From contig DASYCE010000022.1 in the NCBI GenBank assembly GCA_036500345.1, positions 1 through 60,515 on the forward strand: a stretch of DNA of 60,515 bases, read 5' to 3'. Source of the stretch: Gemmatimonadales bacterium (lineage in GTDB: Bacteria; Gemmatimonadota; Gemmatimonadetes; Gemmatimonadales; GWC2-71-9). Of this stretch, positions 12,891 to 40,228 are shown one piece after another. Under the pieces are notes generated by a model, which was not told where the DNA came from, did no database searches, and was given only the letters and a program-made list of their open reading frames with translations. Every line of letters starts with the position of its first letter. The stretch's first letter is position 1. The position numbers and the translations under genes are program-made.

Positions 12891-13124
12891 GGGCCTCTCT
12901 CGAGTGCGGGGTGGGATGGGGCTATGAGAGCGGAAAGTATAGCTCGACCGCAGCGGCAGCGGTTGACGCCCGGCGACGCGAATGTTTCCTTCTCCGATAG
13001 CGCGCCTTGGGGCGCCACCTGTCCGCGGCAAGGGGTTTCGACTCCACCCAACCGGCAGTCCAGAAGGCCATCACCTTCTTCCGGCCTGAAATCAGCGGAC
13101 GTCAGGCACTACGGGAGAAGGATC

Positions 13125-16100
13125 GTGTCCAGGCGTATCACGCCCTCCACCTCCATTGACAACCTCAAGCGGGAAGCGAAGCGTTGGTTGCAGGCGCTTC
13201 GTGTCGGTGACGCTGGCGCCGGCGCCCGGTTCGCCCGCGCCGTCACTCCGGTCCCGCCCGCCCCCGGGCTCCGCCAGGTGCAGCACGCACTTGCGCGGGA
13301 ATTCGGCGTCGCCGGTTGGAGCGACCTCATCGCTGCGGTGGCGGCCGCCCGCGCAGAGCCGGTTCGCATCGACGCGGCGGCGCTCACCCGGTTCCTTCGA
13401 GCCGCCGCTGACGGCGACGTCGACGCGGTAACCCTCGCGCTCGGCGCGCATCCAGCAATGGTCAGTGCACGTGGAATGCTGCGCGGTCACATCGGGCTTC
13501 GCTCGGCGCTGCACTTTGCCGTTGGTGGGTCGCATGTCGACGTCGTGAGGCTGTTGCTCGAGCGCGGAGCTGATCCCGACGTGCGCGACGAGGGCGACAA
13601 CGCGTTACCGCTTCATTTCGCGGCGGAGAGGGAAGAGCTGCCGATCATCCGGCTCCTGGTGGAGCACGGATCCGACATGATCGGAGCCGGCGACGACCAC
13701 GACCTCGAGGTGATCGGGTGGGCGACGGTCTTCGGATCGGCGCGGCCGGAGGTGGTGGAATACCTCCTGGCGCACGGTGCGCGGCACAACATCTTCTCGG
13801 CGATCGTCACCGGAAATCTCGCCGCGATCGAGACGATCGCGCGTGCGGACGGGGCACAGCTCGATCGCACGATGGACCGGACCAACCGCCGTCGCCGGCC
13901 ACTCCACCTGGCGGTGGTGAAGCGGCAGCTCGGCGCGCTCGATCTGCTCCTCCGACTTGGCGCACCGGTCGATCGCCGCGACGCCGCGGGACTGACGCCG
14001 CTCGACCAGGCCGCGCTTGACGGCCAGCGCGACATGGTCGATCACCTCATCGCCGCGGGCGCGCGCATCGAACTTCCTGCCGCCGTGGCGCTCGATCGTC
14101 CCGATGAAGTCCGGCGCCTGCATCGCGACGATCCGGATGTGCTGCACCCCGGGCACCGCCTCGGCACCTTGATCGTGCGGGCAGCGGAACGCGGCTCTGC
14201 GCGCGTGATCGATGCGCTCATCGCCGGTGGTGCCGACGTCAACGCCGAAGACGACGAGAGCACGTCTGTCGACGGAACGTTCGGGTATACCGCGCTTCAT
14301 GCCGCAGCGTTTGCGGGAAACATTGCGGCAACGAAGGCGCTTCTCGCGCACGGCGCCCGGGTCGCGGCGCGGGACACTGTCTATGCCGCGACACCGGTCG
14401 GGTGGGCGGCGTACGGCAAGCACGACGATGTGGTGAAACTACTCATCGAATCGCCCATCGACATCTTCGATGCGATCGATCAGCATCGCCACGATCGCAT
14501 TCGAGAGCTGGTCGTGGGCGATCGATCGGTGCTCGAACGTCCAATGCATGCGTATCTTCGCGTGCCGCCGCGGGAAGACTGGTGGTTCAAGGGCGAATGG
14601 ACGCCGCTCGCCTATGCCGCGGCGCTCGGTCACGACGACGCGATCGCGGTGCTCGAGGAGCTGGGGGCTGCAGTGCCGGCGGAAGTCGTCTCGCGCTTCC
14701 TCGAACTCGCCTGTCCCGACCATCACATCCGCAGCGCCTCCGATCACCTGCGAGTGCGGTCGGCGGCAATGCGGCTCCTCGCCGATCATCCCGACTTGAA
14801 GCGGGCGACTTTCGCGACGGCGATCGTCTGCGGGAACCTCGCCGATGTGCAGCGGCGGCTCGCCGCAGAACCGCAACTGGCGAATGCGCCGATTCGCCAC
14901 TCGGTGACGCGGTCGGCGCCGGGCAATGTTGGCGATACCGAACGAAATCTCCCCGCCAAGGAATGGGCATCGCTGCTCTATCTCTCGTTCGCGCGGCTGC
15001 CGCTCCAGGAGTCAGCAGAGAACGCCATCGCGATCGCGCAACTCCTTCTCGATCGCGGTGCCGATCCGAACGCGTACTTCATGGCCGGCGATTCGCGCTA
15101 CACGCCGCTGGTTGGTGTCATCGGCGAAGGCGAGGAGGACCGTCCGGCGCACCCGCGACGCGACGAACTGAGCCGGCTCCTCCTGGCGAACGGCGCGAAC
15201 CAATACGATCAGCAGGTGGGATACAACATCGGGTTCAAGGGAAAGGTCCTCTGGTTCCTGCAGCTCGCGTACGCTCGCGCCATGAAACTCGGCCTCGGCC
15301 GGGATTGGGAAGATCCCGCCTGGATGATGTTGAACATGGGGAACTACGGATCGGGTGCGCGATGGTACCTCGGCATTGCCGTTGCGAATGATGATGTCGA
15401 ATTGGCGCGATGGTGTCTCGAACACGGTGCCGATGCGAACGCCGAACCTCCGCTGGCGAAGATGCATCCCAAGGCGTCGCTGTACGAACTGGCGGTTCGC
15501 GGCGGGCGCGATGCGATCGCCGACCTGCTGATTGCTCATGGCGCCGCGCATGTGCCGATCGCGTTGACCAACGCACAACAACTCCTTGGCGCGGCACTAC
15601 GCCACGAATCAACGGCCGCGCGAGCGCTGGTGGCTCGGCATCCCGATCTTCGAACCGATGCGTTCGCGATCGGCGAGGCGGTGAAGCGAAAGGACGTCGA
15701 TGCGGTGCGGACGCTGATCGATGCCGGTGTCTCAGTCGAGGCGGTTGACCGGGAAGGCGAACGACCGCTTCACGTCGCGGCGTGGAGCAATGCGGTTGAC
15801 GTCGCCCGCCTGCTCGTCGCGAGGGGAGCCGAGGTCGACTCCATCCGCGGCAACTATCACAACACGGCGCTCGGTGCGGCGCAACACTTCCGCCTGGAAT
15901 CGATGATCAACTATCTGAGTGGCGTCAGCCGTGACATCTGGGAACTGGTGTACCTCGGCAAGATCGAGCGCGTTCGAGAGCTGATTGCCGAGAACCCCGA
16001 TCTCGCTCAGTGCCGCTCGGCCACACAGACTCCGCTGATGTGGCTGCCAGTCGACGACGAAGCATGCGCCGTCGATCTGGCGACGCTCCTCATGGCAAAC

Positions 16101-16250
16101 GGCGCCGATCCGCGCATCGTGAACCACGACGGCCGCACCGCCGCCGACATCGCCGAGCGCAATGGCATGACACGGCTCGGCAAGCTCCTGCGCGCTGGCC
16201 CGGCTCATGGTACGGCGGCGACCGCACCAGGCGCTGAGCAGCCGCGCTGA
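13125..16250 (+). CDS. Large ankyrin-repeat protein
   Basis: About 1041 residues made mostly of ankyrin repeats, which are protein-protein interaction modules. Typical repeat units are visible many times, for example LHFAVGGSHVDVVRLLLERGADPDV, YTALHAAAFAGNIAATKALLAHGA and ERPLHVAAWSNAVDVARLLVARGAEV. No signal peptide or membrane segment is seen. Chosen start: GTG at 13125, preceded by GGGAGAAGG. The open frame continues upstream to 12828 but would overlap the promoter and start of the divergent DinB-like gene. Partner and role are unknown. The stop is 55 bases before a sensor-kinase gene, with a possible promoter between. Confidence 0.85.
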   Translation: MSRRITPSTSIDNLKREAKRWLQALRVGDAGAGARFARAVTPVPPAPGLRQVQHALAREFGVAGWSDLIAAVAAARAEPVRIDAAALTRFLRAAADGDVDAVTLALGAHPAMVSARGMLRGHIGLRSALHFAVGGSHVDVVRLLLERGADPDVRDEGDNALPLHFAAEREELPIIRLLVEHGSDMIGAGDDHDLEVIGWATVFGSARPEVVEYLLAHGARHNIFSAIVTGNLAAIETIARADGAQLDRTMDRTNRRRRPLHLAVVKRQLGALDLLLRLGAPVDRRDAAGLTPLDQAALDGQRDMVDHLIAAGARIELPAAVALDRPDEVRRLHRDDPDVLHPGHRLGTLIVRAAERGSARVIDALIAGGADVNAEDDESTSVDGTFGYTALHAAAFAGNIAATKALLAHGARVAARDTVYAATPVGWAAYGKHDDVVKLLIESPIDIFDAIDQHRHDRIRELVVGDRSVLERPMHAYLRVPPREDWWFKGEWTPLAYAAALGHDDAIAVLEELGAAVPAEVVSRFLELACPDHHIRSASDHLRVRSAAMRLLADHPDLKRATFATAIVCGNLADVQRRLAAEPQLANAPIRHSVTRSAPGNVGDTERNLPAKEWASLLYLSFARLPLQESAENAIAIAQLLLDRGADPNAYFMAGDSRYTPLVGVIGEGEEDRPAHPRRDELSRLLLANGANQYDQQVGYNIGFKGKVLWFLQLAYARAMKLGLGRDWEDPAWMMLNMGNYGSGARWYLGIAVANDDVELARWCLEHGADANAEPPLAKMHPKASLYELAVRGGRDAIADLLIAHGAAHVPIALTNAQQLLGAALRHESTAARALVARHPDLRTDAFAIGEAVKRKDVDAVRTLIDAGVSVEAVDREGERPLHVAAWSNAVDVARLLVARGAEVDSIRGNYHNTALGAAQHFRLESMINYLSGVSRDIWELVYLGKIERVRELIAENPDLAQCRSATQTPLMWLPVDDEACAVDLATLLMANGADPRIVNHDGRTAADIAERNGMTRLGKLLRAGPAHGTAATAPGAEQPR

Positions 16251-24874: not shown

Positions 24875-26022
24875 ACGATTCCCGTCCGACATGGCGGAGC
24901 CGATGCATCCCCGGGATCGCCGGGGCAATCACGCTCCTCTGGCTGTCGGTGTCGCACACCGGTGATTTCCACGTCTACTGGCTGGCTGGTCGCGCGCTCC
25001 GCAGCGGCTGGGCCGCGGTGTACCAGATCAGCGGCCTCACGCCGTTCAAGTACCATCCGGCTTTTGCACTGGTGTTCGCGCCGTTCGGATGGTTGTCGGA
25101 GCCGGCAGCCCGCATCGTCTGGGCCGCGCTCAACGCCGCGATGGTGGTCGACGCGCAACGACGATGGCGTGCACGCTGGACTCTCGATGATGTGGCGATC
25201 GGTCTCGGATACATCTGCGTGGGGCACGCGTTGTTCTGGCAGTATCAGTTCGGCAACGTCACCTTCGCGATGCTGTGGCTCTGGACCGTGGCGCTCACCT
25301 CGCCACGACGCTGGGTCGAGGCCGGGTGCTACGCTATCCTCATCGCCCTCAAGCCGTTCTGGATCGCATTGATCGTTCCGTGGATCCTGTTGCGGCGGTG
25401 GCAGTTGCTCGGGCGCGTCGTGGCGGCGCTCATTGCCATTTCCGCGGTACCGGTAATCCTCGGACCTGCTTCCCTCGTGACCGCGTATCGGCGATGGATC
25501 GAGACCTTTGCCGATCCGCTGCATGCCCACAACTATCCCAAGAACGACAATCAGTCATGGTTCGGATTTCTCTACCGCCACCGTGAGCTGGTGCATGATC
25601 ACGTCACGTTGTGGTGGATCATCGGATGCACGCTGGCAGGAGTCCTCTGGCTCGCCTTCTGGCGACGGCTCTGGCGTGCTCCGCTTGCGCGGCGCGACTG
25701 GTGGATCGTCGAAGCGTCGTTGATCCCGTTCATCCTCTGGACCTCGCCGCTCAGCTGGATCCACCATCAGATCCTCCTGTGGCCACTGCTCGCGCTGGCG
25801 TGGAAGCTCGGCCGGCACGAACCGGCCGCACGCGCCGTCTTTGTTCTGTCGCTGATCGTATTGACGGTCCTGAGTCAGAGCATCATCGGGCGACCGGCGA
25901 CGCTTGTCGTCCTGACGTGGGGGATTCCGCTGATGGCATTTCCGCTGCTGACCTGGTGGGGCGGGGCGCGTGTCGCACCCGGCGGGTCATTTCTTCAGGA
26001 TCAGGAGCAGCGGATCGCGTAG
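24871..26022 (+). CDS. GT87/DUF2029-like membrane glycosyltransferase
   Basis: A ~383-residue polytopic membrane protein with about 8-10 hydrophobic segments. The motif FKYHPAFALVFAPFGWL and the early acidic GDFHVYWLAGRAL resemble the polyprenol-phosphate-mannose-dependent alpha-mannosyltransferases (GT87). It probably transfers a sugar to an envelope glycan from a lipid-linked donor. The proposed TTG start (24871) overlaps the kinase stop (TTGA), and the open frame extends further upstream. The 3' end overlaps the convergent AsmA-like gene by 36 bases. Confidence 0.72.
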   Translation: MNDSRPTWRSRCIPGIAGAITLLWLSVSHTGDFHVYWLAGRALRSGWAAVYQISGLTPFKYHPAFALVFAPFGWLSEPAARIVWAALNAAMVVDAQRRWRARWTLDDVAIGLGYICVGHALFWQYQFGNVTFAMLWLWTVALTSPRRWVEAGCYAILIALKPFWIALIVPWILLRRWQLLGRVVAALIAISAVPVILGPASLVTAYRRWIETFADPLHAHNYPKNDNQSWFGFLYRHRELVHDHVTLWWIIGCTLAGVLWLAFWRRLWRAPLARRDWWIVEASLIPFILWTSPLSWIHHQILLWPLLALAWKLGRHEPAARAVFVLSLIVLTVLSQSIIGRPATLVVLTWGIPLMAFPLLTWWGGARVAPGGSFLQDQEQRIA

Positions 26023-28194
26023 TTGAAACCAGATGAACTGCGGCAGCGTTTCGGTCGCCACCCATTGGTGGGTGATACTGGCATCGATCGGCCCGCGACT
26101 CTTCGAGGTGTCATTGCTGCCGCGGATGCCGAACGCGTTCGCGGCAAATTTCGCGAACTTGCGCTTGAGACTCCCCACCATGCTCGAGTCGGTGCGCGCG
26201 ACGCCCGGCAGGTCGACGTGCAGATCGTGCCAGCGTGGCACCAACTTGCCGACCGCGCGGCCCTGCTGCACCGTGGCATTCCACTCCGCTCCGGCGAACG
26301 TCCCGCTGGTAAACCGCATGCCGACCGAGTTGGCGAGAAACGAATTCATCGCGCGGGGATCCATCGCGCCAAGCGACCCGTGCCATTCCATCGCGAAGTC
26401 GGGCGCCAGGAGCGGGACGTCCCATTCCGCCTGCAGTCGTCCCGCCCCCATCAGGTTCGCCTCTGCGTTCAACCGGAATGGCGTGCGCGCCGTCATCCGG
26501 GCCGGCTCGGTGCTGAAGTTGTAGCCGTGAATGACCGCCTTGGAGAAGGCGAGCACGCCGGCCCGCGGTGCGCCGATGCCGATTTCACGGTAGGTGATCT
26601 CGCCGTCGCCGATGGTCGTATCAATCGACACGTCGACGCGGGAGTCGCGGAGCACCTGCTGAGGCGACCGGCGGACGATATCGGGCGCGGGATCCTCCGG
26701 CTTGTTGCGGTCCTTGAGGACGTCGACAATGGCGCCATGAATCTCGAGGCGTCGAGCCCGAAGCGCGCCACGCTGCAGGTAGGCCGGCAGGTCGATCCCC
26801 GTCGCCACCGCGTGTGCAAAGGTGACGCTCAAGCGGGACTTCTGGTACCGCATCCGGCGCTCGAACGCCGAGTCATCCCCTTCCGGTGCTGCATGAACGG
26901 CATCGACGCTGATCGTTGCGGAGCGGGCATTGACCAGAATTTCCGATGCGGAAAGCTTCACCTGCGATTCACGACGCTCGAATCCGTCGACGCGAAGGGT
27001 GACGTCGCCGATCGGATAGGCCGTGCTCCACGCCGAATCAGTCGATCCGAACGCAAGATGGCCGACGGTCAGCCGCCTGGCCGTGGTGACGATGCTGTCG
27101 GGGCGATGCTGCGGCGACACGATCACGGCGACGGATGTCGCGACCAGGGAGTCGAGACGGACGTTGCTACCCGCGGCTCGCAGCGTTTCTTCGAGCGTCG
27201 TCGGTGCCACCGCCCGCAGCAATCGCGTCGGTTCATGCTGCGGTGACACCATCCGAAGTCCGACGGTGTCGATCCGGAGGAGTCCAACGGCCACGTTTCC
27301 CGACAGCAGAAATGGCCGCCACGCAACCCCCGACAGGCGCACGCGCTGGGCTCGGAGGGTGGCGAACCCGAGTGAATCGGCGCGCGTCCCGGCCTCCGGG
27401 GCATACGTCAGCGAATCGAGCCGGCAGGTTCCGTCGTTGAGCGATGCCGAAAAGTGGCGCAGCGCCAGATGCGCCCCGCTCGGCGTGGTACCGCTGAAGC
27501 GGTCGAGCCGGACGTAGACGTTGCGTGAGAAAAGCGGCTGGCGCTTGGCGACCGGCTCATGCGGGTCGATCCGGACGGCATCAAGCTCGGCCGCGAGCGA
27601 ATCGACCGAAAGGGTGGCGTGCTTCCCGCCCGGTTTCGCCATGTCGAACGTGACGTGGACATGGGGAAAGGTCAGTGCGTCAAGCGAAATCGACGGTAGC
27701 GAGGCCGGGAGATCAACCTTCCCCTGAAACTTGAGGAAGTTGGTCGAGGTATCCTGGCTCTCGGATATCGTCGTCGACGGGATTGTCTCGATCGCAAGCG
27801 TCATCGTGTCGCATCCACCGCGGACGGCATGCAGGCCGCGCGCCGCGGTCAGCTGGTCGAGGTCGATCCCGCTGATCAGGCAGCGACGGAAGTCGAGGGT
27901 CAGCCTCGGATGCGGTGATCGCAGCCGTCCATTCACGACGGTATCCGTCGTGACCGTGATGGTGTCGATGGCGATCGTGTGACTCGACTCATCGAAACGG
28001 ATCGTGCTCATCGCGAGGTGATACGCGCTGTCGCTCGACGTGAGGACGTGCGCTTCAACCCAGTTCCGGATCACCGGATCGGCGACCTGAACTGCGGCGC
28101 GGCCCAGGTGCCAGCGGTTCATCCAGACCGCCGCCGCCGCGAGGATAAGACCTCCTGCGGCGACGCCCGCGAAGATCGGTCGTCGTCTTTGCAT
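25987..28194 (-). CDS. AsmA-like envelope protein
   Basis: A ~735-residue protein with one N-terminal membrane anchor (IFAGVAAGGLILAAAAVWM) followed by a long region of alternating beta strands. It contains repeated phrases such as LPSISLDALTFPHVHVTFD and a conserved-looking C-terminal section (MGAGRLQAEWDVPLLAPDF, NSFLANSVGMRFTSGTFAGAEW). This architecture resembles AsmA/DUF748 proteins, which are thought to bridge the periplasm or move lipids to the outer membrane. I recognise the shape, not a named family. Start at 28194 chosen for the basic residues before the anchor; the frame opens at 28251. Confidence 0.68.
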   Translation of the reverse strand: MQRRRPIFAGVAAGGLILAAAAVWMNRWHLGRAAVQVADPVIRNWVEAHVLTSSDSAYHLAMSTIRFDESSHTIAIDTITVTTDTVVNGRLRSPHPRLTLDFRRCLISGIDLDQLTAARGLHAVRGGCDTMTLAIETIPSTTISESQDTSTNFLKFQGKVDLPASLPSISLDALTFPHVHVTFDMAKPGGKHATLSVDSLAAELDAVRIDPHEPVAKRQPLFSRNVYVRLDRFSGTTPSGAHLALRHFSASLNDGTCRLDSLTYAPEAGTRADSLGFATLRAQRVRLSGVAWRPFLLSGNVAVGLLRIDTVGLRMVSPQHEPTRLLRAVAPTTLEETLRAAGSNVRLDSLVATSVAVIVSPQHRPDSIVTTARRLTVGHLAFGSTDSAWSTAYPIGDVTLRVDGFERRESQVKLSASEILVNARSATISVDAVHAAPEGDDSAFERRMRYQKSRLSVTFAHAVATGIDLPAYLQRGALRARRLEIHGAIVDVLKDRNKPEDPAPDIVRRSPQQVLRDSRVDVSIDTTIGDGEITYREIGIGAPRAGVLAFSKAVIHGYNFSTEPARMTARTPFRLNAEANLMGAGRLQAEWDVPLLAPDFAMEWHGSLGAMDPRAMNSFLANSVGMRFTSGTFAGAEWNATVQQGRAVGKLVPRWHDLHVDLPGVARTDSSMVGSLKRKFAKFAANAFGIRGSNDTSKSRGPIDASITHQWVATETLPQFIWFQLRDPLLLILKK

Positions 28195-28404
28195 CGCCCG
28201 TGGAATTGCCCGCTCCCGAGTAGTCCTGAATAGTTGACGCTTGCCGGTCAAAGAAGAGTACCGCTTCGCTGACGCAGATGACTGTGGCGGCTGCCCCTCG
28301 TTCCCGATCGGATTGCCTCCTCCCGCCGGTGGTCCTGCGCGGTCGATGATGAGCTAAAGCTTTATTTGGTATGATGTTATGCAATCAGCGCCGGGTTTTC
28401 GATC

Positions 28405-29673: not shown

Positions 29674-30231
29674 ATGAAAGCCAATGACATCCGCAAGGGG
29701 ACCGTGATCTATTACGAGGGGAAGCCGCACCTCGTCATGGATTTCACCCACCGTACCCCGGGGAACCTCCGGGCCTTCGTGCAGGTCCGGCTCCGCAACC
29801 TGAACACCGGCATGTCGCTCGACCATCGGTTCAGCGCGACCGAACTGGTCGAGGAGGCCCGCCTCGATACCAGGACGATGCAGGTCCTCTACGCGGACGG
29901 CAACGGGGTCCACGTCATGGACGCCGATACCTATGAGCAGTACACCCTCGATCCGGACGTGGTCGGCGAGGATGCCGCGTGGATGGTTGCAGAAATGCAA
30001 TTCGACGCGACCTGGCTCGAGGGGCGGCCGATCTCGTTCCAGTTGCCGGCCTCGCTCGAACTGGAAGTTGTCGAGACGTCACCGGTCATGAAGACCGCGA
30101 CCAAGACGGCGAGCTCGAAACCGGCCAAGCTCAGCAACGGGGTCACCATCCAGGTGCCGGAGTTCGTTGCGCAGGGTGAGCGCGTCCGGGTCAACCCGCG
30201 TGAGCGTGTCTATCTCGAACGCGTGAAGTAA
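29674..30231 (+). CDS. efp: Elongation factor P
   Basis: A 185-residue translation factor that binds ribosomes stalled at polyproline and promotes peptide bond formation. All three domains are present: the N-terminal KOW-like domain (MKANDIRKGTVIYYEGKPHLVMDF), the central OB domain (DGNGVHVMDADTYEQYTL) and the C-terminal OB domain (KPAKLSNGVTIQVPEFV, ending RVYLERVK). The domain-I tip that contacts the tRNA reads TPGNLRAF: Asn31 stands where E. coli EF-P has the modified Lys34 and others have Arg. Modification by EpmA- or EarP-type enzymes is therefore not expected, and neither is encoded in the window. GAGAGAG precedes the ATG. Confidence 0.96.
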   Translation: MKANDIRKGTVIYYEGKPHLVMDFTHRTPGNLRAFVQVRLRNLNTGMSLDHRFSATELVEEARLDTRTMQVLYADGNGVHVMDADTYEQYTLDPDVVGEDAAWMVAEMQFDATWLEGRPISFQLPASLELEVVETSPVMKTATKTASSKPAKLSNGVTIQVPEFVAQGERVRVNPRERVYLERVK

Positions 30232-30253
30232 CTGATTCCGGACCGACCGGAAT

Positions 30254-30291
30254 GCAGAGAGGCGGGAGCGACTTCGCTCCCGCCTCTCTGC
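30254..30291. terminator. Strong bidirectional hairpin terminator
   Basis: A perfect 16-bp stem (GCAGAGAGGCGGGAGC and complement) with a 6-base loop lies between the convergent efp and TonB receptor genes. A short T-containing tail (GTGTTTC) follows on the plus strand. Confidence 0.75.
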
Positions 30292-30322
30292 GTGTTTCGA
30301 TCATCGCTCGATCAGCAGGACA

Positions 30323-33300
30323 TCACTCTCCGCCGCCGCCGCGATTGCCACCGCGACCGCCGCCAGCGCCTCCGGGGCCGCCGCCAGGACCACCGCGCCC
30401 ACCGCCGAAGAGGTTGTTCTGCACGTTGGTCACCGAATCCGGGAGCAGCGCCCACTGGACGTCGGTCAGGATCGCGTGCGCCTGATCACGCGTCTTGATC
30501 TGCTGCTGAAAGAGCGCGAACTGGAACGGTCCCAGCTTCTGCTGTAGCGGTTGCAGGTCCGCCGCCGAGCCGATCTTGGCAATCTTCTCGACGTCCGGCC
30601 GGATACTGTCGACCTGGACCTGCAACTTCGCGTTGCTCGAATCAACCAGTGCCTGCAGCTTGGCGACCTGATCCTTGCTCAGGACCAGCGAGTCCTTCCG
30701 CGCCAGGATCTGCGTCGCGACGTTCTGCCGGCGATACCGTGCCATCGCCGAATCGAGCGCACCGAGACCGCTGCTGGCGCCGCCGAGCGAACGGCTCAGC
30801 TGCTGGATCTGCTGGGTGCGCGGATCGTATCCGATCGCGTACCGCAGCGCGACCTGCAGCTGGAACGGGCTGCGGCGCGCCGTCGCGGCCGAGCTGGTGT
30901 TGCCGAACCGCTCGTTCACCGCATAGACGAACTGCTCGGTCGTCGGGTCAAAGCCCTTGACCTGCAACAGGTGGTTGTCCGGCGACGCATTCCCGCCCCA
31001 TCCCTTGATGTTGTCGGGCCCGTTGATCCACTCGTCGAGGCCGCCGAGCAGGTTCTGCGTTGAGAGTGACACCGCGAGGCGGCGATCGAACATCGCGGGG
31101 CGCCAGTTCATCTGGAACGCCAGCGTCGGCTGCCACGGCCCGTAGCAGGTGTTGCGGCCGGCGATCTGGCCAATCTGCGCCTCGAGACACTTCCGCGCGT
31201 TCCCCGAAGTCTCCTTGAGGAGGCGGTTCATGCCATTCGAGATTGCGGTGTCGGTCGTTGTCGCAGGGTCGAAGATGAACGCGCGATCGTTGTTGCCCGA
31301 CCCATCTCCATTGATATCACCTGAGACGACCGGGGTGTACGGCCGCCCCGAGACCATCCCCATGTTCGAGGTGAGCTCGAACGCCGGAGTAATCGGCCAC
31401 GAGATCTGCGCCTGGAAGTTGTGCCGCCGATCGCTGCTCGAGGTCCCCCATTCGTAGTCGTTCGGATCGCCGGCGGTCTGGTTGCCGCCGCCGAACCCGC
31501 CGCCGAAGCCGCCACCCGAGCCCCCCTGGTCGCGGGCGGACATCAGCGTATAGCTGAAGCTCAGGTTGATCTGCTTGCTGGTCGTTCCCGAGACATTGAA
31601 CGTCACCTGCTTGGTGCTGTTCTGGAGCGCGCTGAAGACATCGTTTACCTGACCGAAGTTGATGTCCTTGCGCGACGCCGCCAGCGGAATCGCGCCGGTC
31701 GATGTCACGATCTGCGCGGGGTCCGCATACACCGGACGATTGTTTTCGCTGCCGATGCTGAAGATCGGCTGGTCGTTGAGGTTGAGGTCCTTCGAGGCCG
31801 CCTGGCCCACGCCGCGCACATAGGATGCGTCGACATTGAACGAGACACGCGGCGTGATCCGGCGGGTGAAGCCGAGTGAGGCACGCTTGGTCTTCGAGGC
31901 GCCATAGTTGGGGTCGTACACGGTGACGATCGGAATGCCGTTGATCACCGGCGTCGAGCTGTCGTCGAGGCATTGATCAGGGATGGTGCTCGGATCATTG
32001 ATGTAGTCCGACCAGTCCGGCGTCGGGACGGCCTCGCCGGTGCAATAGAGCTGGGTCTGGGCGTTGATCAGCCCCGACTGACCCTGCGCCGTCTGCGGCA
32101 GGCCCGATGGCATTGTCCCGCGGAAGACACCCACGCCGCCGCGTATCGTCCAGAGCGGCGGAGCGAAGCCGCGTTGCGCCGAGCCCTGCTGCTCCGGCGC
32201 CGGAATCGCGTAGCTGAATCCGATCCGCGGCGAGAGGTAGGTCTCGGTCGGCAGCACGTGCGTATCGACGTGGAATTCGTTGAGCACGTCCTCGTTGGTC
32301 GCCGGTGCGCCAGCGTACGAAGAATGCTCGAGGCGCAGGCCGTAGTTGAGCTGGAGATTGCCGGCGCCGCCGCCACCAAACCCGCCGCCGCCGCCACCAC
32401 CGCGACCGCCACGACCGCCGCCACCACCGAAGCCGCCGCGTCCGCCGCCATTCGGCGTTCCCTCACCGGCAGCCGTTGCCGCCGCCGTGCTGTTGCGTTT
32501 GCTGAGCGGAATGCGCCAGGCATCGCTGAGGTAGATCGCCTCGTTGAAGATCTGCCCCGAGCGGATCGTCGGCTGGAGCGTCCGGGTGAACGTCGAGGGG
32601 TCGTTGTTCTCGAAGTCCCCCAGCGTGGCGTAGGTGAACGTCCCGTTGCGATTGTTGGTCACGTCGCTGGTGATGTCGGAAGTATTGCCGTACAAGCCGA
32701 GTGCCCAGCGGTGTGCGCCCGCGGGCGAGAGGAGCGACAACTCGTCGGTGACTTCAACCCCGTTCGTCGTGCTGCTGGTCGGGAATCCGGTATTGCCGCC
32801 GAACCCGAGGGTCGTGAAGGTGAGCTGCCCGGAGTCGACCGTGCTGAAGCTGGTGACGCGTCCGGCGGGCGCGAACAGGTAGGGGCTCGAGTTGTTGCTG
32901 CTGTACGAGTACCCGCCATTCAGCGAGTTGATCAGACCACTGTTGAAGCGCGACGAGACGCGAACCGCAGCGGTGGCACTCTTGTTCGACGAGGTTCCAC
33001 CGACCTGCGGCAGCGACGTCGAATTGATGCGCTGCGGTTCGTTCGAGCTCCAGTTGGCACTTCCGGTGAACGAGATCACATGGGTCTGGCCGGCGTTCCA
33101 GTCGAAACGGAAGATGCCGTTGAAGCGGTCGTTCGAGGCGTTGGGCGAAATCGTCCCCGCCTTGGCGGTGAGGCCCGTCGCCGAGACGGCGTTGATGAAC
33201 GTGGCCACCGAGTCCGGTGACACGCCGAGTCGAGAGAGCGTCGCATCGTCGGCGACATTGAGCGAAGCCACCGGCGACGCCGAGTGATTGTACTGGAACG

Positions 33301-34210
33301 AGCCGAACAAGGACGTCACGTTCCGCTTCAGCGGACCACCGAACCCTGCGCCAAATGATTGCGTTGCCTGCCCCGCCTGAAACTGGTTGCCGCTGACACC
33401 ACCCCATGCAAGCGTGTTGTTGATCGAGTAACTGCTCAGCGAGCCCGTGACCCGGTTGCCGCCACTCTTCGTCGTCACCGACACCATGCCGCCCGAGAAA
33501 TTGCCGCGCGATACGTCGTAGGTGTTGGTAATCACGCGCGTGCTCCGCACGGCGTCTTGTGGCAGGTTGGTGCTGGTCGTCGTGAGGCCGTTCACCACAT
33601 AGGTATTCGATGCTGCGCTCTGGCCGGCAACCGAGAAGCTCGCCGCCGTCGAATCGGTGGCCCCGGTGAGAATGACGCCGGGAGCAAGCGCCGCGAGCGC
33701 CGACAGGTCGGACGCGTCGATCGGAAGACGCATCGCCTGGTCGCCGTTGATCGTGTGGACCGCCTCGCCCGCCGTGGCTCGGCTCTCGGCCTGGTCGAGG
33801 TTCGGGCGGCGTCCGCTCGTGGCCACCAGATCGGAGATCCGCTGCGCCTGGTCACCCATCTTCACGTTCAGGACGATGCGGTCGTCGTCCGGCTGGCGCA
33901 TCACGTTGTAGATCTGCGGCGCCTTGCCGATTGCCTTGACCGAGATCCGGTACTGGCTCTGTCCGCCGCCGGCATCGATGAGGATCCGGAATTGCCCCTT
34001 GTCGTTCGTATGCGTCGAGCGAGTCACCTCGGTCTCGATGCTGAACGCCTCGACCGAGGCACCCGGCACCGGCTTCCCGCTGGCGTCGGTCACCGTGCCA
34101 ACGATGATGTCGACGTCACTTTGCGCGTGGGCCGGTCTGACCGCCACGAACATCAGCGCTGCGAGGAGTGCGAAGGCGCTCGCGAGGCGAGCGGAGCAAC
34201 GAACCAGCAT
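30323..34210 (-). CDS. TonB-dependent receptor with carboxypeptidase-like N-terminal domain and helical C-terminal extension
   Basis: A ~1295-residue outer-membrane receptor. The signal peptide (MLVRCSARLASAFALLAALM...AHAQ) is followed by a carboxypeptidase-regulatory-like beta sandwich (VDIIVGTVTDASGKPVPGASVEAF), a plug domain (PIDASDLSALAALAPGVILTG) and a large barrel. A Gly/Arg-rich loop interrupts the barrel (about 32361-32452). The barrel appears to end near FQLQVALRYAIGYD. After that come ~135 helical residues with KDQVAKLQALV and ILTDVQWALLPD, resembling Spy/CpxP (LTxxQ) proteins, then a Gly/Arg tail ending in Glu. There is no C-terminal aromatic residue. Start 34210 begins the signal peptide; CGGGACCAA precedes it. 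The ligand is unknown. Confidence 0.88.
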   Translation of the reverse strand: MLVRCSARLASAFALLAALMFVAVRPAHAQSDVDIIVGTVTDASGKPVPGASVEAFSIETEVTRSTHTNDKGQFRILIDAGGGQSQYRISVKAIGKAPQIYNVMRQPDDDRIVLNVKMGDQAQRISDLVATSGRRPNLDQAESRATAGEAVHTINGDQAMRLPIDASDLSALAALAPGVILTGATDSTAASFSVAGQSAASNTYVVNGLTTTSTNLPQDAVRSTRVITNTYDVSRGNFSGGMVSVTTKSGGNRVTGSLSSYSINNTLAWGGVSGNQFQAGQATQSFGAGFGGPLKRNVTSLFGSFQYNHSASPVASLNVADDATLSRLGVSPDSVATFINAVSATGLTAKAGTISPNASNDRFNGIFRFDWNAGQTHVISFTGSANWSSNEPQRINSTSLPQVGGTSSNKSATAAVRVSSRFNSGLINSLNGGYSYSSNNSSPYLFAPAGRVTSFSTVDSGQLTFTTLGFGGNTGFPTSSTTNGVEVTDELSLLSPAGAHRWALGLYGNTSDITSDVTNNRNGTFTYATLGDFENNDPSTFTRTLQPTIRSGQIFNEAIYLSDAWRIPLSKRNSTAAATAAGEGTPNGGGRGGFGGGGGRGGRGGGGGGGFGGGGAGNLQLNYGLRLEHSSYAGAPATNEDVLNEFHVDTHVLPTETYLSPRIGFSYAIPAPEQQGSAQRGFAPPLWTIRGGVGVFRGTMPSGLPQTAQGQSGLINAQTQLYCTGEAVPTPDWSDYINDPSTIPDQCLDDSSTPVINGIPIVTVYDPNYGASKTKRASLGFTRRITPRVSFNVDASYVRGVGQAASKDLNLNDQPIFSIGSENNRPVYADPAQIVTSTGAIPLAASRKDINFGQVNDVFSALQNSTKQVTFNVSGTTSKQINLSFSYTLMSARDQGGSGGGFGGGFGGGNQTAGDPNDYEWGTSSSDRRHNFQAQISWPITPAFELTSNMGMVSGRPYTPVVSGDINGDGSGNNDRAFIFDPATTTDTAISNGMNRLLKETSGNARKCLEAQIGQIAGRNTCYGPWQPTLAFQMNWRPAMFDRRLAVSLSTQNLLGGLDEWINGPDNIKGWGGNASPDNHLLQVKGFDPTTEQFVYAVNERFGNTSSAATARRSPFQLQVALRYAIGYDPRTQQIQQLSRSLGGASSGLGALDSAMARYRRQNVATQILARKDSLVLSKDQVAKLQALVDSSNAKLQVQVDSIRPDVEKIAKIGSAADLQPLQQKLGPFQFALFQQQIKTRDQAHAILTDVQWALLPDSVTNVQNNLFGGGRGGPGGGPGGAGGGRGGNRGGGGE
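32361..32452 (-). repeat. Gly/Arg-rich low-complexity segment in first TonB receptor
   Basis: Encodes a run of Gly, Arg and occasional Phe (GGGRGGFGGGGGRGGRGG and onward) inside the barrel domain. It probably forms a flexible surface loop. The DNA is an imperfect array of CCGCC-type triplets and may be prone to slippage. Confidence 0.75.
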
Positions 34211-34320
34211 GTCATTGGTCCCGGTATCGGGGTCGATGGCACGATTCTCGGCCGAAGCGCCTAGTCGCACCTGGGCTTAGTTACGCTGGGTTGAGGCCAA
34301 AAGTTGAGGGATTAAACGGA

Positions 34321-34355
34321 CCGGCGGACTGTCAAGGAACTTGACAATCCGCCGG
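34321..34355. terminator. Hairpin between the tandem TonB receptor genes
   Basis: An inverted repeat of 8 bp plus 7 bp with one internal mismatch and a 3-base loop (CCGGCGGAcTGTCAAG-gaa and partner) lies just downstream of the second receptor on the minus strand. It would separate its transcript from that of the first receptor. Confidence 0.5.
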
Positions 34356-34384
34356 AGCACGGCCTGGCGCTATCCTGGTGCCGG

Positions 34385-37300
34385 TTACTCGCCCCCGCGG
34401 CCGCCCCCACCGCCGCCTCCGCGACCACCCCGCCCACCGCCAAAGCCGCCACGGCCGCCCGCCGCGCCGCCGGTGAGGTTGTTCGAAGGTGTCCGCACGT
34501 AGTCGGGGAGGAGCGCCCACTGGACATCGGTGAGTATCTGGCGGACCCGGTCGTGCACCCGGGTCTGCTCCCGCACGGCGATCTGAGAGAAGGTCCGTAT
34601 CTGGGTAAGGAGCGGTACCACGTCGGCGCTGGTCTTCGCCTTCTGCACCACGTCCACCGCTGTCGTGAGGGAATCGATCTGCGGCTTCATGAACGCGGCA
34701 CTCGAATCCCTCAACGTGGTCAGCTGGGTCACCTGCGCCGGCAACAGCGCCAGCGAGTCTTTCCGGTTGAGTGCCGCGACCGCTGCGTTCTGGCGGTCGA
34801 AGCGGACCGTGAACGAGTCGACCAGCATCCGCGCGGTTGCGGGCTGGATGGTGCCGCGACCGAGCTGCTGAATCTGCTGCAGCCGCGTGTCATAGCCGAT
34901 GGTATACCGCACGCTGAGCTGCAGCTGGAACGGCTGGCGCTGTGCCAGGGCGCTCCCGCTTGTGTTGCCGAAGCGCTCATTGACCACGTACTTGAACTGA
35001 TTGGTGTTCGGATCAAAACCGTCGACCGTGAGCAGCGTCCCGTCGGGACGAGCGAAGCCGCCCCATCCCTTGAGGTTGTTCTCGCCATTGATCAACTGGT
35101 CGAGTCCACCCAGGAGATTCTGTGTGGACACCGACAGCGCCAGCCGACGATCGAAGAACCCGGGCCGCCAATTGACTTGCACGTTGAGCGATGGTTGCCA
35201 CGGTCCCGTACAGGTGTTCCGGCCGGCAATCTGCCCCATCTGCGCCTGCAGGCATTTGCGGGCATTTCCCGACGTTTCGTTCAGCAGGCGCGACATGCCG
35301 TTCGCCACCGCCGTGTCGGTCGTGATGGACGGATTGTAGATGAAGGCGCGGTCATTCCCGGACGAACCATCCCCGTTGATGTCGCCGGCGACGATCGGCG
35401 TGTAATGCGACCCCGATGTGATGCTCCCCGTGCCGGTGATTTCGAGTGCGGGAGTGACCGGCCACTGCATGCTCAGCTGGAAGTTGTGGCGCCGCTCGTT
35501 GCTCGACGGTGCCCAGGTGTAGACGTTGGGATCTCCGGCGGTCTGGTTGAGCCCGCCGCCAATGCCGCCGCCCGCACCGCCTTCGTCCTGGGCATACATC
35601 AGCGTATAGGCGAGGTTGATCACCATCTGCTTGTTGGTCGTGCCGGCCAGATTGAAGGTGACCTGCTTGGTGCGGTTCTCCAGCGCCGAGAACACCGTGT
35701 TCACCCGGCCGAATGCCTGGTCGATGCGCGACGCCGAGAGCGGCACCGCCCCGGTGGTGGGGATGATCTGTGCCGGATCAGCAAAGACCGGCCGGTTATC
35801 CTCGGCACCAAGGTTGAAACGCGATGTTGCGTCGTTGAGATTGAGATCGCGCGACGCTGCCTGGCCGATGCCATGCACGTACGACGCATCGACATTGAAC
35901 GAGATGCGCGGCGTGATGCTGCGCGAAAGGCCGAGCGACACGCGTTGCGTCTTGGGCGCGCCGTAATTGGGGTCGTACGTGGTGACCGTCGGCCGGCCGG
36001 TGGTCACGGGCGTCGATTGGTTGTTGACGCACTCGGACGGGATGTTGCCGGGATCGGTCGCGAAGTCCATCCAGTTCGGATCCGGAACGGCATCGCCGAC
36101 GCATACCAACTGTGTCTGTGCGGTGCTCAATCCCGACTGCGCCTGCGCCGTGCCCGGAAGCGTCGCCGGCATTTGCCCGCGGAAGATTCCGGCGCCCCCG
36201 CGGATCACGAGGATCGGCGGCGCGAAGCCGCGCTGACTCGAGCCCTGCTGCTCCGGGCGCGGAATGCTGTAGCTGAAGCCGATGCGCGGCGACACGTAGA
36301 ATTCGCCGGGAAGCTGATCGGTGCGGACGTGGAATTCATTGAACACCGAATCGTTGAGCGCCGGCGCGCCGAGGTACGACGAATGCTCCAGCCGCACGCC
36401 ATAGATCAGCTGGAAATTGCTGCCGCCGGCCCCTGCCGTGCCGATGTCTCCGCCGCCACCGCGGCCGCCGCGACGACCACCACCGCCGCCCCCGCCAAAT
36501 CCGCCGCCCCCACCGCCCCCAGCCCCGCGGCCGCCGCCGTTGGCGCCCCCGCCACGGCCGGCGCGCGATGACCGCGGACGCCATGCGTCGCTGAGGTAGA
36601 TCGCTTCGTTCCACGACGTGCCGTCGCGGATGGTCGGCTGCAGCGTGCGCGTGAACTGCGCGGGCGTGTTGTTCTCGAAGTCGAGTAGCGAGTTGTACGT
36701 GTAGGTGCCGAACCGGTTGTTGGTGACGTCCTGGTCGAACTGCTGGGCGTAGGAGTAGAAGCCCAGTGCGAATCGATGCGTCCCGCTCCCCGGCAAGACC
36801 GAAATCTCGTTGGTGGCCTCGAAACTCTTGGTGTTGTTGTGCTGCGGCAGGCCGGCGTTTCCGCCAAAACCGAACACCGTCGTTGCGATTTCTCCGGAAT
36901 CGAGGGTCGACTCATTGGTCACCCGGCCGACCGGGGCGGTGAGGTACGGATCCGATCGGGAATCGTTGACCGACACACCACCACGGAACTGGTTCACCCA
37001 TCGTCCGAGTTGCGACGCCACCTGGAGCGACACCGCGCCGTTATTCGTCTTCGAGTTGCCGCCGACCTGCGGCAGCTGGGTGCTCCCGATTCGCGTGGGA
37101 TCCTGGGTATTCCAGCCAAGATTCGACGTGATCGTGACGATCGAGGTCCGACCCATGTTCCAGTCGAAGCGGTCAAGCGAGGAATACTGGTCGCTGGTGC
37201 GATCCGACGAGATGTCGCCGGCGAGTCCCGTCAAGCCGAGGCCATTGACGGTCGAGATGAATTTCGCGACGGAATCCGGCGAGGCACCGAGGCGCTGCAG

Positions 37301-38266
37301 CGTCGCGTTGTCGGCAATGTTGAGCGAAGGAAGCGGCTGCAATCGTCGGGTGACCTGCAGCGACCCGAACAGCGATGTGTGATTCCGCTTGATCGGACCG
37401 CCGAACCCGCCGCTCAGCAGTTCGTTGGTTGTTCCCTGGCCGAACGCGTTGGACGTATTTCCGCCCCACGCGAGATCCTGATTCTGGAATCGACTGCTGA
37501 GTGATCCGGTGACGCGATTCCCGCCGCCGCGTGATGTCACCGACACCTGCCCGCCGGAAAATCCGCCGCGCGCCACGTCGTAGGTGTTGGTGATCACGCG
37601 CGTCGTCCGCACCGCGTCCTGCGGAACGGTGGTGCTCGTCGTCGTCATGCCGTTGACCTGATAACTGTTCGACTCGGCGCTCTGGCCGGCGACCGAGAAG
37701 GTCGATGCGGTCGAGTCGGTCCCTGAGGTGAAGATCACTCCGGGCGCGAGTGCCGCGAGGGCGGCGAGGTCGGTCGCATCGATCGGCAACCGGAGCGCCT
37801 GATCGCCGGTGATGAAAAGTCCGGTCTCGCCAGCAGTTGGCCGATCCTCGCGGGTCAGGTCAGGGCGCCGGCTGGTGCTCGCGACGATGTCCTGCAACCG
37901 GACCGCCTGGGATCCGAGGGTGATGTCGAGGTCGATGCGATCGTCATCTTCCTGTCGTGTCACGTTCTGGATGAACGGGTTGTGACCGATCGCGCGGGCG
38001 GTGATCCGGTACTGCCCGCCGCCATCGTTGAAGAAGATGATGTACTTGCCGTCGGCTTTCGTGGTGGCGCGGCGGGTTTCGTCGGTCTGGATGCTCAACG
38101 CTTCGATGGTGGCATTGGGAACCGGCTTGCCGTCCTTGTCGAGCACCTTTCCTTCGATGATGTCGAGGTTGCCGCCTTGCGCGAGGGCAGTGTGGGGACG
38201 AGCGAGCTGGGCGGCGGCGACGAAGAGCAGAGCGGATACGACTCGAAGCACACGGCGCAACGGCAT
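34385..38266 (-). CDS. TonB-dependent receptor, tandem paralogue of the neighbouring receptor
   Basis: A ~1293-residue outer-membrane receptor with the same layout as its neighbour: signal peptide (MPLRRVLRVVSALLFVAAAQ...ALAQ), carboxypeptidase-like sandwich (LDIIEGKVLDKDGKPVPNATIEAL), plug (PIDATDLAALAALAPGVIFTSG) and barrel with a Gly/Arg-rich insert (about 36450-36560). The barrel appears to end at FQLQLSVRYTIGYD, then come a helical extension (AQVTQLTTLRD, RQILTDVQWALLPD) and a Gly/Arg tail. The open frame runs on to 39448 only because it is antisense to the ABC exporter; 38266 starts the signal peptide and is preceded by the same CGGGACCAA leader. The ligand is unknown. Confidence 0.88.
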   Translation of the reverse strand: MPLRRVLRVVSALLFVAAAQLARPHTALAQGGNLDIIEGKVLDKDGKPVPNATIEALSIQTDETRRATTKADGKYIIFFNDGGGQYRITARAIGHNPFIQNVTRQEDDDRIDLDITLGSQAVRLQDIVASTSRRPDLTREDRPTAGETGLFITGDQALRLPIDATDLAALAALAPGVIFTSGTDSTASTFSVAGQSAESNSYQVNGMTTTSTTVPQDAVRTTRVITNTYDVARGGFSGGQVSVTSRGGGNRVTGSLSSRFQNQDLAWGGNTSNAFGQGTTNELLSGGFGGPIKRNHTSLFGSLQVTRRLQPLPSLNIADNATLQRLGASPDSVAKFISTVNGLGLTGLAGDISSDRTSDQYSSLDRFDWNMGRTSIVTITSNLGWNTQDPTRIGSTQLPQVGGNSKTNNGAVSLQVASQLGRWVNQFRGGVSVNDSRSDPYLTAPVGRVTNESTLDSGEIATTVFGFGGNAGLPQHNNTKSFEATNEISVLPGSGTHRFALGFYSYAQQFDQDVTNNRFGTYTYNSLLDFENNTPAQFTRTLQPTIRDGTSWNEAIYLSDAWRPRSSRAGRGGGANGGGRGAGGGGGGGFGGGGGGGRRGGRGGGGDIGTAGAGGSNFQLIYGVRLEHSSYLGAPALNDSVFNEFHVRTDQLPGEFYVSPRIGFSYSIPRPEQQGSSQRGFAPPILVIRGGAGIFRGQMPATLPGTAQAQSGLSTAQTQLVCVGDAVPDPNWMDFATDPGNIPSECVNNQSTPVTTGRPTVTTYDPNYGAPKTQRVSLGLSRSITPRISFNVDASYVHGIGQAASRDLNLNDATSRFNLGAEDNRPVFADPAQIIPTTGAVPLSASRIDQAFGRVNTVFSALENRTKQVTFNLAGTTNKQMVINLAYTLMYAQDEGGAGGGIGGGLNQTAGDPNVYTWAPSSNERRHNFQLSMQWPVTPALEITGTGSITSGSHYTPIVAGDINGDGSSGNDRAFIYNPSITTDTAVANGMSRLLNETSGNARKCLQAQMGQIAGRNTCTGPWQPSLNVQVNWRPGFFDRRLALSVSTQNLLGGLDQLINGENNLKGWGGFARPDGTLLTVDGFDPNTNQFKYVVNERFGNTSGSALAQRQPFQLQLSVRYTIGYDTRLQQIQQLGRGTIQPATARMLVDSFTVRFDRQNAAVAALNRKDSLALLPAQVTQLTTLRDSSAAFMKPQIDSLTTAVDVVQKAKTSADVVPLLTQIRTFSQIAVREQTRVHDRVRQILTDVQWALLPDYVRTPSNNLTGGAAGGRGGFGGGRGGRGGGGGGGRGGE
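36450..36560 (-). repeat. Gly/Arg-rich low-complexity segment in second TonB receptor
   Basis: Encodes a Gly-dominated run with scattered Arg and Phe in the equivalent place to that of the tandem paralogue, but of different length and order. This suggests repeat expansion or contraction after duplication. Confidence 0.75.
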
Positions 38267-38413
38267 GAGTTGGTCCCGGCTCGGGTTCTGGTTGTCCGCG
38301 CGAATGCCGGACGCACCACGGACTTTCCTACGCTGCCTCGCCGGAAAACGTTGATCTCCGTGAACGCCGTGTTTCAAGCTGGGGCTGCGACGATTTTCTC
38401 TTATCTTCCCTCC

Positions 38414-40228
38414 ATGACAGCACCCGGAAAACCAAAGGTCAGCAGCGAGGTTGTCTGGCGCGAAGCGCGTGAGCTGATCTGGCTCCATCGCAAGCGACTG
38501 GGCGTCGGCTTCATCCTGATGCTGATCAACCGAGGCAGCGGGTTCGTCCTCCCCGGCTCCGTCACGGTTGTGCTCGGCCGGGTGCTCCCGCGCCACGACA
38601 AGCATCTGCTGGTGATGGTTGCCTTGGCCATCGGAGCTGCCACGCTGGTGCAGGCCGCCACATCGTTCGGACTGTCGCAGATCCTCGGCGTCGCCGCGCA
38701 GCGCGCCATTACCGACATGCGACGGACGGTGCAGTCCCACCTGATTCGGCTTCCGATTCGCGCCTTCGACTCCACCCAGACCGGCCAGCTGGTATCCCGC
38801 GTGATGAGCGATGCCGAAGGGATTCGCAACCTCATCGGCACCGGCTTGGTGCAACTCGCCGGCGGGCTCCTCACGTCGCTCGCGGCGTTTGTCATCCTGC
38901 TCTATCTCAATTGGCGTCTGACGGTCTGGACGATCATTCTCCTCGGCGGGTTCTCGGCCGGGATGGCGTACGCGTTCAGCAAGCTGCGACCGATCTTCCG
39001 GATCCGCGGGCAACTCAATGCCGAAGTCACCGGACGCCTGGTCGAGAGCATCTCGGGGATTCGCGTCGTCAAGGCGTACGCGGCCGAGCGCCGCGAGAAG
39101 CTGGCGTTCACCAAGGGCGTCAATCGCCTGCTGCGCAACGTTGCGGCAACGATGACCGGAATCTCCGCCGCCGGGGCGATGTCGGCGGTGGTGATCGGAC
39201 TGATCGGGGTTGTGATGATCGTCGTCGGCGGCGGGGATGTGATCGCGGGCCGCATGACGATTGCGCAACTGGTGGCCTACTCCGGCTTTACCATCATGAT
39301 GGCGAGCCCGCTCATCCAGATCGCGTCGGTGAGTACGCAGATCACCGAGGCATTCGCCGGCCTCGACCGCATCCGGGAACTCCGGTCCTGGGTGCCCGAG
39401 GATGCCGACGATGCCAACCGGCATCCCGCGGGGACGATCATCGGGCATGTGGAGTTCCAGGACGTCACCTTCTCATACGACCCGGGCGTTCCCGTACTCA
39501 AGCACGTCTCGTTCGATGCGCCAGCCGGCTCCTCCACGGCACTGGTCGGGTCGAGTGGATCGGGAAAAAGCACGTTGGTGTCACTGGTCATGGCGTTCAA
39601 TCATCCCGATTCCGGCACGATCCTGGTCGACGGTCGCGATCTCGGCACATTGCGGCTGCGGGACTATCGCAGCCGGCTGGGGATCGTGCTGCAGGACAAC
39701 TTTCTCTTCGACGGCACCATTCTCGAGAACATCCGCTTTGCGCAGCCAAGTGCCAGCGACGCCGAGGTCCTCGAGGCGGCGCGGATCGCCCACTGCGATG
39801 AATTCACCCTCCGATTCGAGCTCGGGTACATGACGATCGTGGGGGAGCGCGGGGTGAAGCTCAGCGGCGGCCAGCGCCAGCGTGTCGCGATCGCGCGTGC
39901 AATTCTCGCGGATCCGGCGATCCTCATCCTCGACGAAGCGACGTCGTCGCTCGACTCGGAAAGCGAGGCGTTGATCCAGGAGGGTCTGGCGCGGCTGCGC
40001 GCCGGTCGCACCACGTTCGTGATCGCGCACCGGCTCTCGACGATTACCTCAGCTGATCAGATCCTGGTCCTCGACAACGGCGAGATTGCGGAGCGGGGAA
40101 CCCACGACGAACTGCTGGAGGTCGGAGGCAGGTACCGCGCGCTGTACGAACGTCAGTACCGGCAGGCCATCAATCGATATGTGAACCCGGGAGAGGAACT
40201 GCCCGGTGCGGTGCATCTCAGAAGCTGA
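38414..40228 (+). CDS. ABC exporter half-transporter (permease-ATPase fusion)
   Basis: A 604-residue protein with about six N-terminal membrane helices (residues ~30-320) and a C-terminal ATPase domain. The Walker A is GSSGSGKST, the signature is LSGGQRQR, Walker B is ILILDEATSSLDSE and the H loop is IAHRLSTI. This is the MsbA/multidrug/lipid exporter type, working as a homodimer or with a partner in the inner membrane. The exported substrate is not determined. The ATG at 38414 lacks a Shine-Dalgarno, but TATCTT lies six bases upstream. It is divergent from the second TonB receptor with a 147-base gap. Confidence 0.93.
   Translation: MTAPGKPKVSSEVVWREARELIWLHRKRLGVGFILMLINRGSGFVLPGSVTVVLGRVLPRHDKHLLVMVALAIGAATLVQAATSFGLSQILGVAAQRAITDMRRTVQSHLIRLPIRAFDSTQTGQLVSRVMSDAEGIRNLIGTGLVQLAGGLLTSLAAFVILLYLNWRLTVWTIILLGGFSAGMAYAFSKLRPIFRIRGQLNAEVTGRLVESISGIRVVKAYAAERREKLAFTKGVNRLLRNVAATMTGISAAGAMSAVVIGLIGVVMIVVGGGDVIAGRMTIAQLVAYSGFTIMMASPLIQIASVSTQITEAFAGLDRIRELRSWVPEDADDANRHPAGTIIGHVEFQDVTFSYDPGVPVLKHVSFDAPAGSSTALVGSSGSGKSTLVSLVMAFNHPDSGTILVDGRDLGTLRLRDYRSRLGIVLQDNFLFDGTILENIRFAQPSASDAEVLEAARIAHCDEFTLRFELGYMTIVGERGVKLSGGQRQRVAIARAILADPAILILDEATSSLDSESEALIQEGLARLRAGRTTFVIAHRLSTITSADQILVLDNGEIAERGTHDELLEVGGRYRALYERQYRQAINRYVNPGEELPGAVHLRS

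Follow-up and report, generated by a model that had tools for sequence, protein, structure and literature searches.

Two tandem genes in a 60,515-nucleotide stretch of contig DASYCE010000022.1 of a Gemmatimonadales bacterium (the whole stretch is referred to below as the window) encode TonB-dependent receptors, A and B, that run on beyond the point where canonical receptors of their family end. According to a structural model and to profile comparisons, the tail of each receptor is almost certainly a divergent helical domain of the LTXXQ (Spy/CpxP) type, fused after a complete barrel. Fusion of a Spy/CpxP-type helical module had been proposed in an earlier note on this DNA, and the model, profile and paralogue evidence bears it out. 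The features concerned are the following.

30323..34210, minus strand: receptor A, a TonB-dependent receptor (ATG at 34210; 1295 amino acids, aa), with the domain order CarboxypepD_reg, plug, OMP_b-brl_4 barrel, LTXXQ-type tail and Gly/Arg end
30824..30865, minus strand: predicted last barrel strand of A, FQLQVALRYAIGYD, residues 1116-1129 (model strand, structure alignment, tail-less paralogues)
30407..30823, minus strand: predicted helical LTXXQ-type periplasmic domain of A, residues 1130-1268 (AlphaFold2 models, profile matches)
34385..38266, minus strand: receptor B, tandem paralogue of A (ATG at 38266; 1293 aa)
34889..34930, minus strand: predicted last barrel strand of B, FQLQLSVRYTIGYD, residues 1113-1126 (alignment with A)
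34472..34888, minus strand: predicted helical LTXXQ-type periplasmic domain of B, residues 1127-1265 (Pfam LTXXQ E = 0.034, below the cut-off; profile matches)

Barrel end and internal beta-signal

The two receptors are 59% identical and share one plan, and receptor B also starts with a signal-peptide-like stretch and CarboxypepD_reg, followed by the OMP_b-brl_4 barrel. After the phrase RY.IGYD, 166 (A) and 167 (B) residues remain: a segment of about 139 residues in which Leu, Gln and charged residues abound, and after it a Gly/Arg-rich end of 27-28 residues, the last of them Glu. This composition was as previously described for both proteins, and the motifs then taken for the barrel ends were located at the last-strand positions given above, as was, in A and B alike, the common phrase ILTDVQWALLPD. 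The interval assigned at that time, 30323-34888, contains the whole of A and only the tail of B, since B extends to 38266. Barrel and tail share one open frame, both in A and B and in relatives from many genomes, and the tail is thus no small secreted protein of its own.

An AlphaFold2 model was obtained for residues 120-1295 of A with 43 full-length sequences (predicted local distance difference test score, pLDDT, 81; predicted template modelling score 0.76). Its final strand comprises model residues 997-1008, that is, A 1116-1127 (FQLQVALRYAIG). Beyond this strand the model has helices alone as far as A 1268, and disorder from there on. The tail residues thus do not form the last barrel strands, the outcome that the earlier note had named as one that would refute its proposal. 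Fifty solved TonB-dependent receptors align to the model at Z 26-33 over 516-666 residues (model about 20-1008), and these alignments end at model residue 1007-1009; in each solved chain this corresponds to the C-terminus or a point close to it (residue 594 in BtuB). At the same time, tail-less members of the barrel family from the same genomes mostly finish with an aromatic residue in the register at which the tailed receptors continue: WQAQLTLRYAF (own genome), FQLGARYTF, IQLSARYSF and IQVGAKYLF, against FQLQVALRYAIGYD in A. In the model, A has the plug and 22-stranded barrel of a TonB-dependent receptor, and the barrel is complete before the tail. The alignment of the C-terminal strands of solved receptors, together with the aromatic ends of the tail-less paralogues, indicates that the beta-signal (..LQVALRYAIG) is internal in the tailed receptors, as the earlier note had supposed, and that the tail begins where other receptors end. 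The topology of TonB receptors implies that the tail domain must be periplasmic, since it is on that side of the membrane that the final strand of a 22-stranded barrel of this kind runs out.

At the N-terminus of A, two further features were located.

34121..34210, minus strand: signal-peptide-like N-terminus of A, MLVRCSARLASAFALLAALMFVAVRPAHAQ, read from the sequence
33857..34105, minus strand: CarboxypepD_reg domain of A, residues 36-118 (Pfam PF13620, E = 8e-13)

In the Pfam scan of the receptors, the OMP_b-brl_4 match (PF25183) was above the cut-off and the Plug match (PF07715) was weak; an N-terminal STN domain was not found, and CarboxypepD_reg occupies that place. Three TonB_C proteins above the cut-off are encoded in the same genome, so a TonB system is present. 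A candidate TonB box (LQDIVAS / ISDLVAT) was noticed by eye only.

Relationship of the tail to LTXXQ proteins

An alignment of 71 tails of related receptors revealed the pattern L-x-L-[TS]-x-x-Q-v-x-x-L ... ILT-x-x-Q-W-x-x-(L/V)P, in which some 70 residues separate one motif from the other. The Q of the first motif is kept in 68 of the 71 tails, and in the second motif L is present in all 71, T in 62, Q in 70 and W in 63; the motifs read LSKDQ and LTDVQ in A, and LLPAQ and LTDVQ in B. The linker between barrel and domain is 16-75 residues long and often Gly-rich.

With the Pfam LTXXQ model (PF07813), 48 of the 71 tails were matched at E <= 0.05, the best E value being 4e-9. In the family-wide search, Pfam's curated LTXXQ cut-off was exceeded by several receptor frames (1229-1457 aa), and a 1310-aa receptor (locus L183), scanned as a whole protein, was above the Pfam cut-off for LTXXQ, CarboxypepD_reg and OMP_b-brl_4. 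Receptor A alone gave no LTXXQ match in single-sequence Pfam and NCBIfam scans, and B reached only the E value listed above, so A and B are divergent members of the family. Both were matched by an independent profile built solely from free-standing LTXXQ proteins picked by Pfam; this set was chosen partly by similarity to the tails, which introduces a mild circularity, and nearly all of it came from loci found via Pfam's LTXXQ cut-off. The LTxxQ-family profile check proposed earlier thus gave a positive answer for the related receptors by the Pfam cut-off and for A and B by the free-standing profile.

Comparison of the tails with this profile in hhalign yielded a probability of 98.9-99.0 and E of about 1e-17 (1.2e-17). 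At E < 1e-3 (Z = 1e6) the profile matched 62 of the 71 real tails, whereas 1491 shuffled or reversed tails gave no match at this threshold, which excludes chance. Over the whole 3.3-Mb genome it gave six matches, three of which are receptor tails: A (4.8e-8), a third paralogue (C7; 9.5e-7) and B (1.2e-6), the matches inside the window lying at 30449-30733 (A tail) and 34514-34774 (B tail). A scan of the genome contigs with a single protein as query returned no match.

The same profile scored 46.6 bits against E. coli Spy, 23.6 against CpxP and 17.2 against ZraP, and Spy and CpxP are themselves assigned to LTXXQ by the Pfam scan. The link to Spy needed this bridge via the free-standing Gemmatimonadota LTXXQ proteins: the receptor-tail profile against E. 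coli Spy alone gave a weak match, with shuffled copies scoring close, and an hmmsearch of the PDB with the tail profile placed apolipoproteins first (a compositional effect) and Spy at E 0.3.

In the AlphaFold2 model of the tail, helices are predicted at 32-54, 63-97, 100-131 and 134-151 and include a long hairpin. Superposition on CpxP (3itf) gave Z 7.1 over 104/111 residues with a root-mean-square deviation of 4.7; CpxP and a Salmonella VirG-like protein (Z 7.1-7.7) stood amid unrelated helical bundles in the same Z range, and a Foldseek search with the tail model found no significant PDB match. The structure search suggested in the earlier note therefore proved non-discriminating, while its outcome is compatible with a Spy/CpxP fold.

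Distribution and origin of the tailed receptors

Relatives were gathered from 395 genomes of the phylum using the barrel-end-plus-tail alignment as query, and 215 of these genomes contained a match. The 77 loci fetched from named genomes belong to Gemmatimonadota, bar a few titled just "bacterium"; 70 of them hold a receptor frame longer than 700 aa with a tail match. Of the remaining 7, one (L150) has an unrelated receptor on the minus strand, and the others are cut by a contig end or broken in frame. Every receptor of the clade with an intact C-terminus carries the tail, and all named ones are from Gemmatimonadota. No match was listed in a more distant group of the phylum, members of which do have free-standing LTXXQ proteins, and in the plasmid collection matches occurred only in replicons of Gemmatirosa kalamazoonensis.

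In a tree of 67 barrels built with the tail columns excluded, 43 tailed receptors formed one side of a single branch (Shimodaira-Hasegawa-like approximate likelihood ratio test support of 100), which requires one change, most tailed rows having been found with a query that included the tail. This would fit a fusion that took place once, in the Gemmatimonadota class of this genome, and has been retained since, with no later loss among the sampled receptors. Two tandem LTXXQ domains, joined by Gly-rich or Gln-rich linkers, are present in at least seven receptors, which belong to two families (L086, L087, L088, L090, L091, L092 and L096). The ratio of nonsynonymous to synonymous substitution rates between orthologues was 0.25-0.57 for the tail and 0.16-0.30 for the barrel, so the tail is under purifying selection.

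It might still be argued that the tail is no real domain and either belongs to the barrel, extends it with low-complexity sequence or results from a wrongly drawn gene boundary; the empty single-sequence Pfam scan of the A tail and the Foldseek result would fit this. Such an explanation is refuted by the alignment of solved receptors up to model residues 1007-1009 and by the profile matches. The motif conservation and purifying selection, the single clade, the ends of the tail-less paralogues and the one open frame in many genomes also speak against it.

The Gly/Arg-rich stretches behave differently from the domain itself and were mapped as follows.

30326..30406, minus strand: Gly/Arg-rich C-terminus of A, 27 residues (predicted disordered, pLDDT mostly below 50)
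34388..34471, minus strand: Gly/Arg-rich C-terminus of B, 28 residues (sequence)
32363..32500, minus strand: internal Gly/Arg-rich stretch of A, residues 571-616 (pLDDT below 50, model 452-497)

A Gly/Arg tail is present in only 29 of the 71 relatives and was rejected as a conserved feature. The internal stretch of A falls between model strands 430-448 and 500-514, which by strand parity would place it at a periplasmic-side turn; receptor B has an internal Gly/Arg-rich stretch at the same place. A free-standing secreted LTXXQ-like protein encoded elsewhere in this genome (C7:19520-19900) has Gly/Arg-rich stretches on both sides, as the receptor tails do.

Possible roles of the tail

The earlier note spoke of a chaperone- or stress-sensor-like module; the LTXXQ relationship held, and a chaperone-like role is one that we infer, for every member, from Spy. 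In E. coli, the chaperone Spy works without ATP; it binds outer-membrane proteins in their unfolded state, protects them and can compensate for Skp and FkpA (PMC8546600). The reading that we prefer, tentatively and at somewhat less than even confidence, is that the tail acts like a tethered Spy. Anchored to the outer membrane on its periplasmic side, the domain would bind polypeptide without ATP and could shield the receptor's own unfolded segments during assembly of this protein of about 1300 residues; neighbouring outer-membrane proteins or an imported polypeptide may be alternative clients, and tandem tail copies would raise avidity or mimic the Spy dimer. Several observations weigh against this. 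The net charge of the domain is just mildly positive, ranging from -10 to +9; the fold match to CpxP is no higher than the helical-bundle background; similar-size tail-less paralogues of the same genomes assemble without an LTXXQ domain; and genes for extracytoplasmic function (ECF) sigma factors beside the receptor in three loci favour signalling.

Signalling or stress sensing is the main rival. Through homotypic LTXXQ contacts, the tail would tell LTXXQ proteins of the inner membrane and ECF anti-sigma factors whether the receptor is occupied or misfolded. It would act either as an equivalent, placed at the C-terminus, of the signalling domain of FecA or as a CpxP/CnrX-like inhibitor freed on stress. 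The three loci in question, in which a tailed receptor lies immediately 3' of ECF and membrane-anchored LTXXQ genes, are given below.

L183:1118-6954
L167:3419-9477
L132:3567-8586

The L183 run consists of genes for a secreted LTXXQ protein, an ECF sigma factor (Pfam Sigma70_r2 and r4), a small transmembrane protein and a membrane-anchored LTXXQ protein, with the receptor as the last gene after a gap of 38 bp. L167 has the same run as far as gene calling resolves (the small transmembrane protein was seen in L183), with a gap of 18 bp, and the gene set of L132 is similar. In both L167 and L183 a second ECF/LTXXQ set and a TolC-like efflux gene follow. In the genome under study, too, a free-standing LTXXQ gene (C26:87513-87887) has an ECF-sigma-like gene of the same orientation in its vicinity, which adds to the case. 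However, an ECF sigma gene was present in the flanks of just 3 of 62 related loci, the window receptors are flanked by efp and an ATP-binding cassette (ABC) exporter gene with no adjoining ECF sigma or anti-sigma gene, and up to eight tailed receptors per genome are many for one pathway. Signalling is thus possible and, on balance, doubtful; its broader form, a new class of trans-envelope transducer widespread in Gemmatimonadota, whose C-terminal LTXXQ domain signals to membrane-anchored LTXXQ and ECF sigma/anti-sigma proteins, must be considered unlikely.

A purely structural role without chaperone activity, such as receptor oligomerisation, spacing from peptidoglycan or gating of the periplasmic mouth or TonB access, would suit a flexible linker and helical hairpin at the periplasmic exit, and Spy-type domains are known to dimerise. 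The LTxxQ motifs are, however, conserved in finer detail than a plain spacer requires and tandem copies have no obvious use in spacing, which leaves such a role improbable. Metal binding or sensing of the ZraP or CnrX kind is suggested by the overlap of PF13801 (Metal_resist) with LTXXQ on E. coli Spy and CpxP and by a weak match in 1 of the 71 tails. It is very improbable because no conserved His or Cys was found: Cys makes up 0.0% and His 0.5% of the domain residues, and within any one column His occurs in at most 7 and Cys in at most 3 of the 71 rows.

A gene-neighbour census over all loci revealed no dominant partner. The A/B pair looks like a tandem duplication within the genus; the order efp, receptor(s), ABC exporter (window 29674-40228) recurs in several congeners, where the number of receptors is one or two. 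In one receptor subclade, a secreted protein of about 440-590 aa with a beta-propeller look is encoded near the receptor (L140:9339-10778 and 20 further loci), in almost every case immediately 3' of it and in the same orientation; it is likely an operon partner of the receptor, and the one member scanned had no Pfam match. Elsewhere in the window, a 1140-aa frame (12828-16250) consists mostly of ankyrin repeats, and a 754-aa frame (25987-28251) with an apparent N-terminal membrane anchor gave no Pfam match and has look-alikes near efp in several congeners.

Compared with known systems, the tails share with Spy/CpxP proteins the two spaced LTxxQ motifs, the helical hairpin and the predicted periplasmic location, with homology detectable through the free-standing Gemmatimonadota proteins; unlike free-standing Spy/CpxP, they are fused to a TonB-receptor C-terminus, sometimes in tandem, and have their own second motif, ILTxxQWxx(L/V)P. 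Oar-like/OMP_b-brl_4 receptors with CarboxypepD_reg have the same N-terminal domain, plug and barrel, and include tail-less paralogues in this genome, but the canonical ones end at the aromatic beta-signal (..LTLRYAF), whereas the tailed ones run on for about 165 residues. FecA-type transducers likewise combine a receptor with an extra periplasmic domain, and a few tailed relatives lie by ECF sigma genes; in FecA that domain is an N-terminal STN, whereas here it is C-terminal and LTXXQ-type, with no sigma/anti-sigma genes by the window receptors. CnrX-CnrY-CnrH and ZraP are linked by the LTXXQ/Metal_resist relationship and by the sets of ECF sigma and membrane-anchored LTXXQ genes in some related loci, but the receptor tails have no conserved metal ligands. 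In OmpA, as in the tailed receptors, the barrel ends internally and is followed by a soluble C-terminal periplasmic domain; its barrel, however, is 8-stranded and without a plug, and its domain binds peptidoglycan and is not LTXXQ.

Both kinds of component, TonB receptor and LTXXQ domain, are already known. No paper tying TonB receptors to LTXXQ/Spy domains was found in the open-licence literature, nor does there seem to be an account there of the fusion as such, of its place at the C-terminus of a TonB receptor, of the internal beta-signal or of the tandem form. If the reading is true, an outer-membrane receptor with its own Spy/CpxP-type module would join nutrient uptake to envelope proteostasis or signalling, as a conserved architecture in a phylum that has received little study. 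Nature would also provide here a TonB-receptor barrel whose assembly starts from an internal beta-signal, for which tail-less paralogues in the same cells are ready controls, and since the cultured Gemmatirosa kalamazoonensis carries tailed receptors, these ideas are testable.

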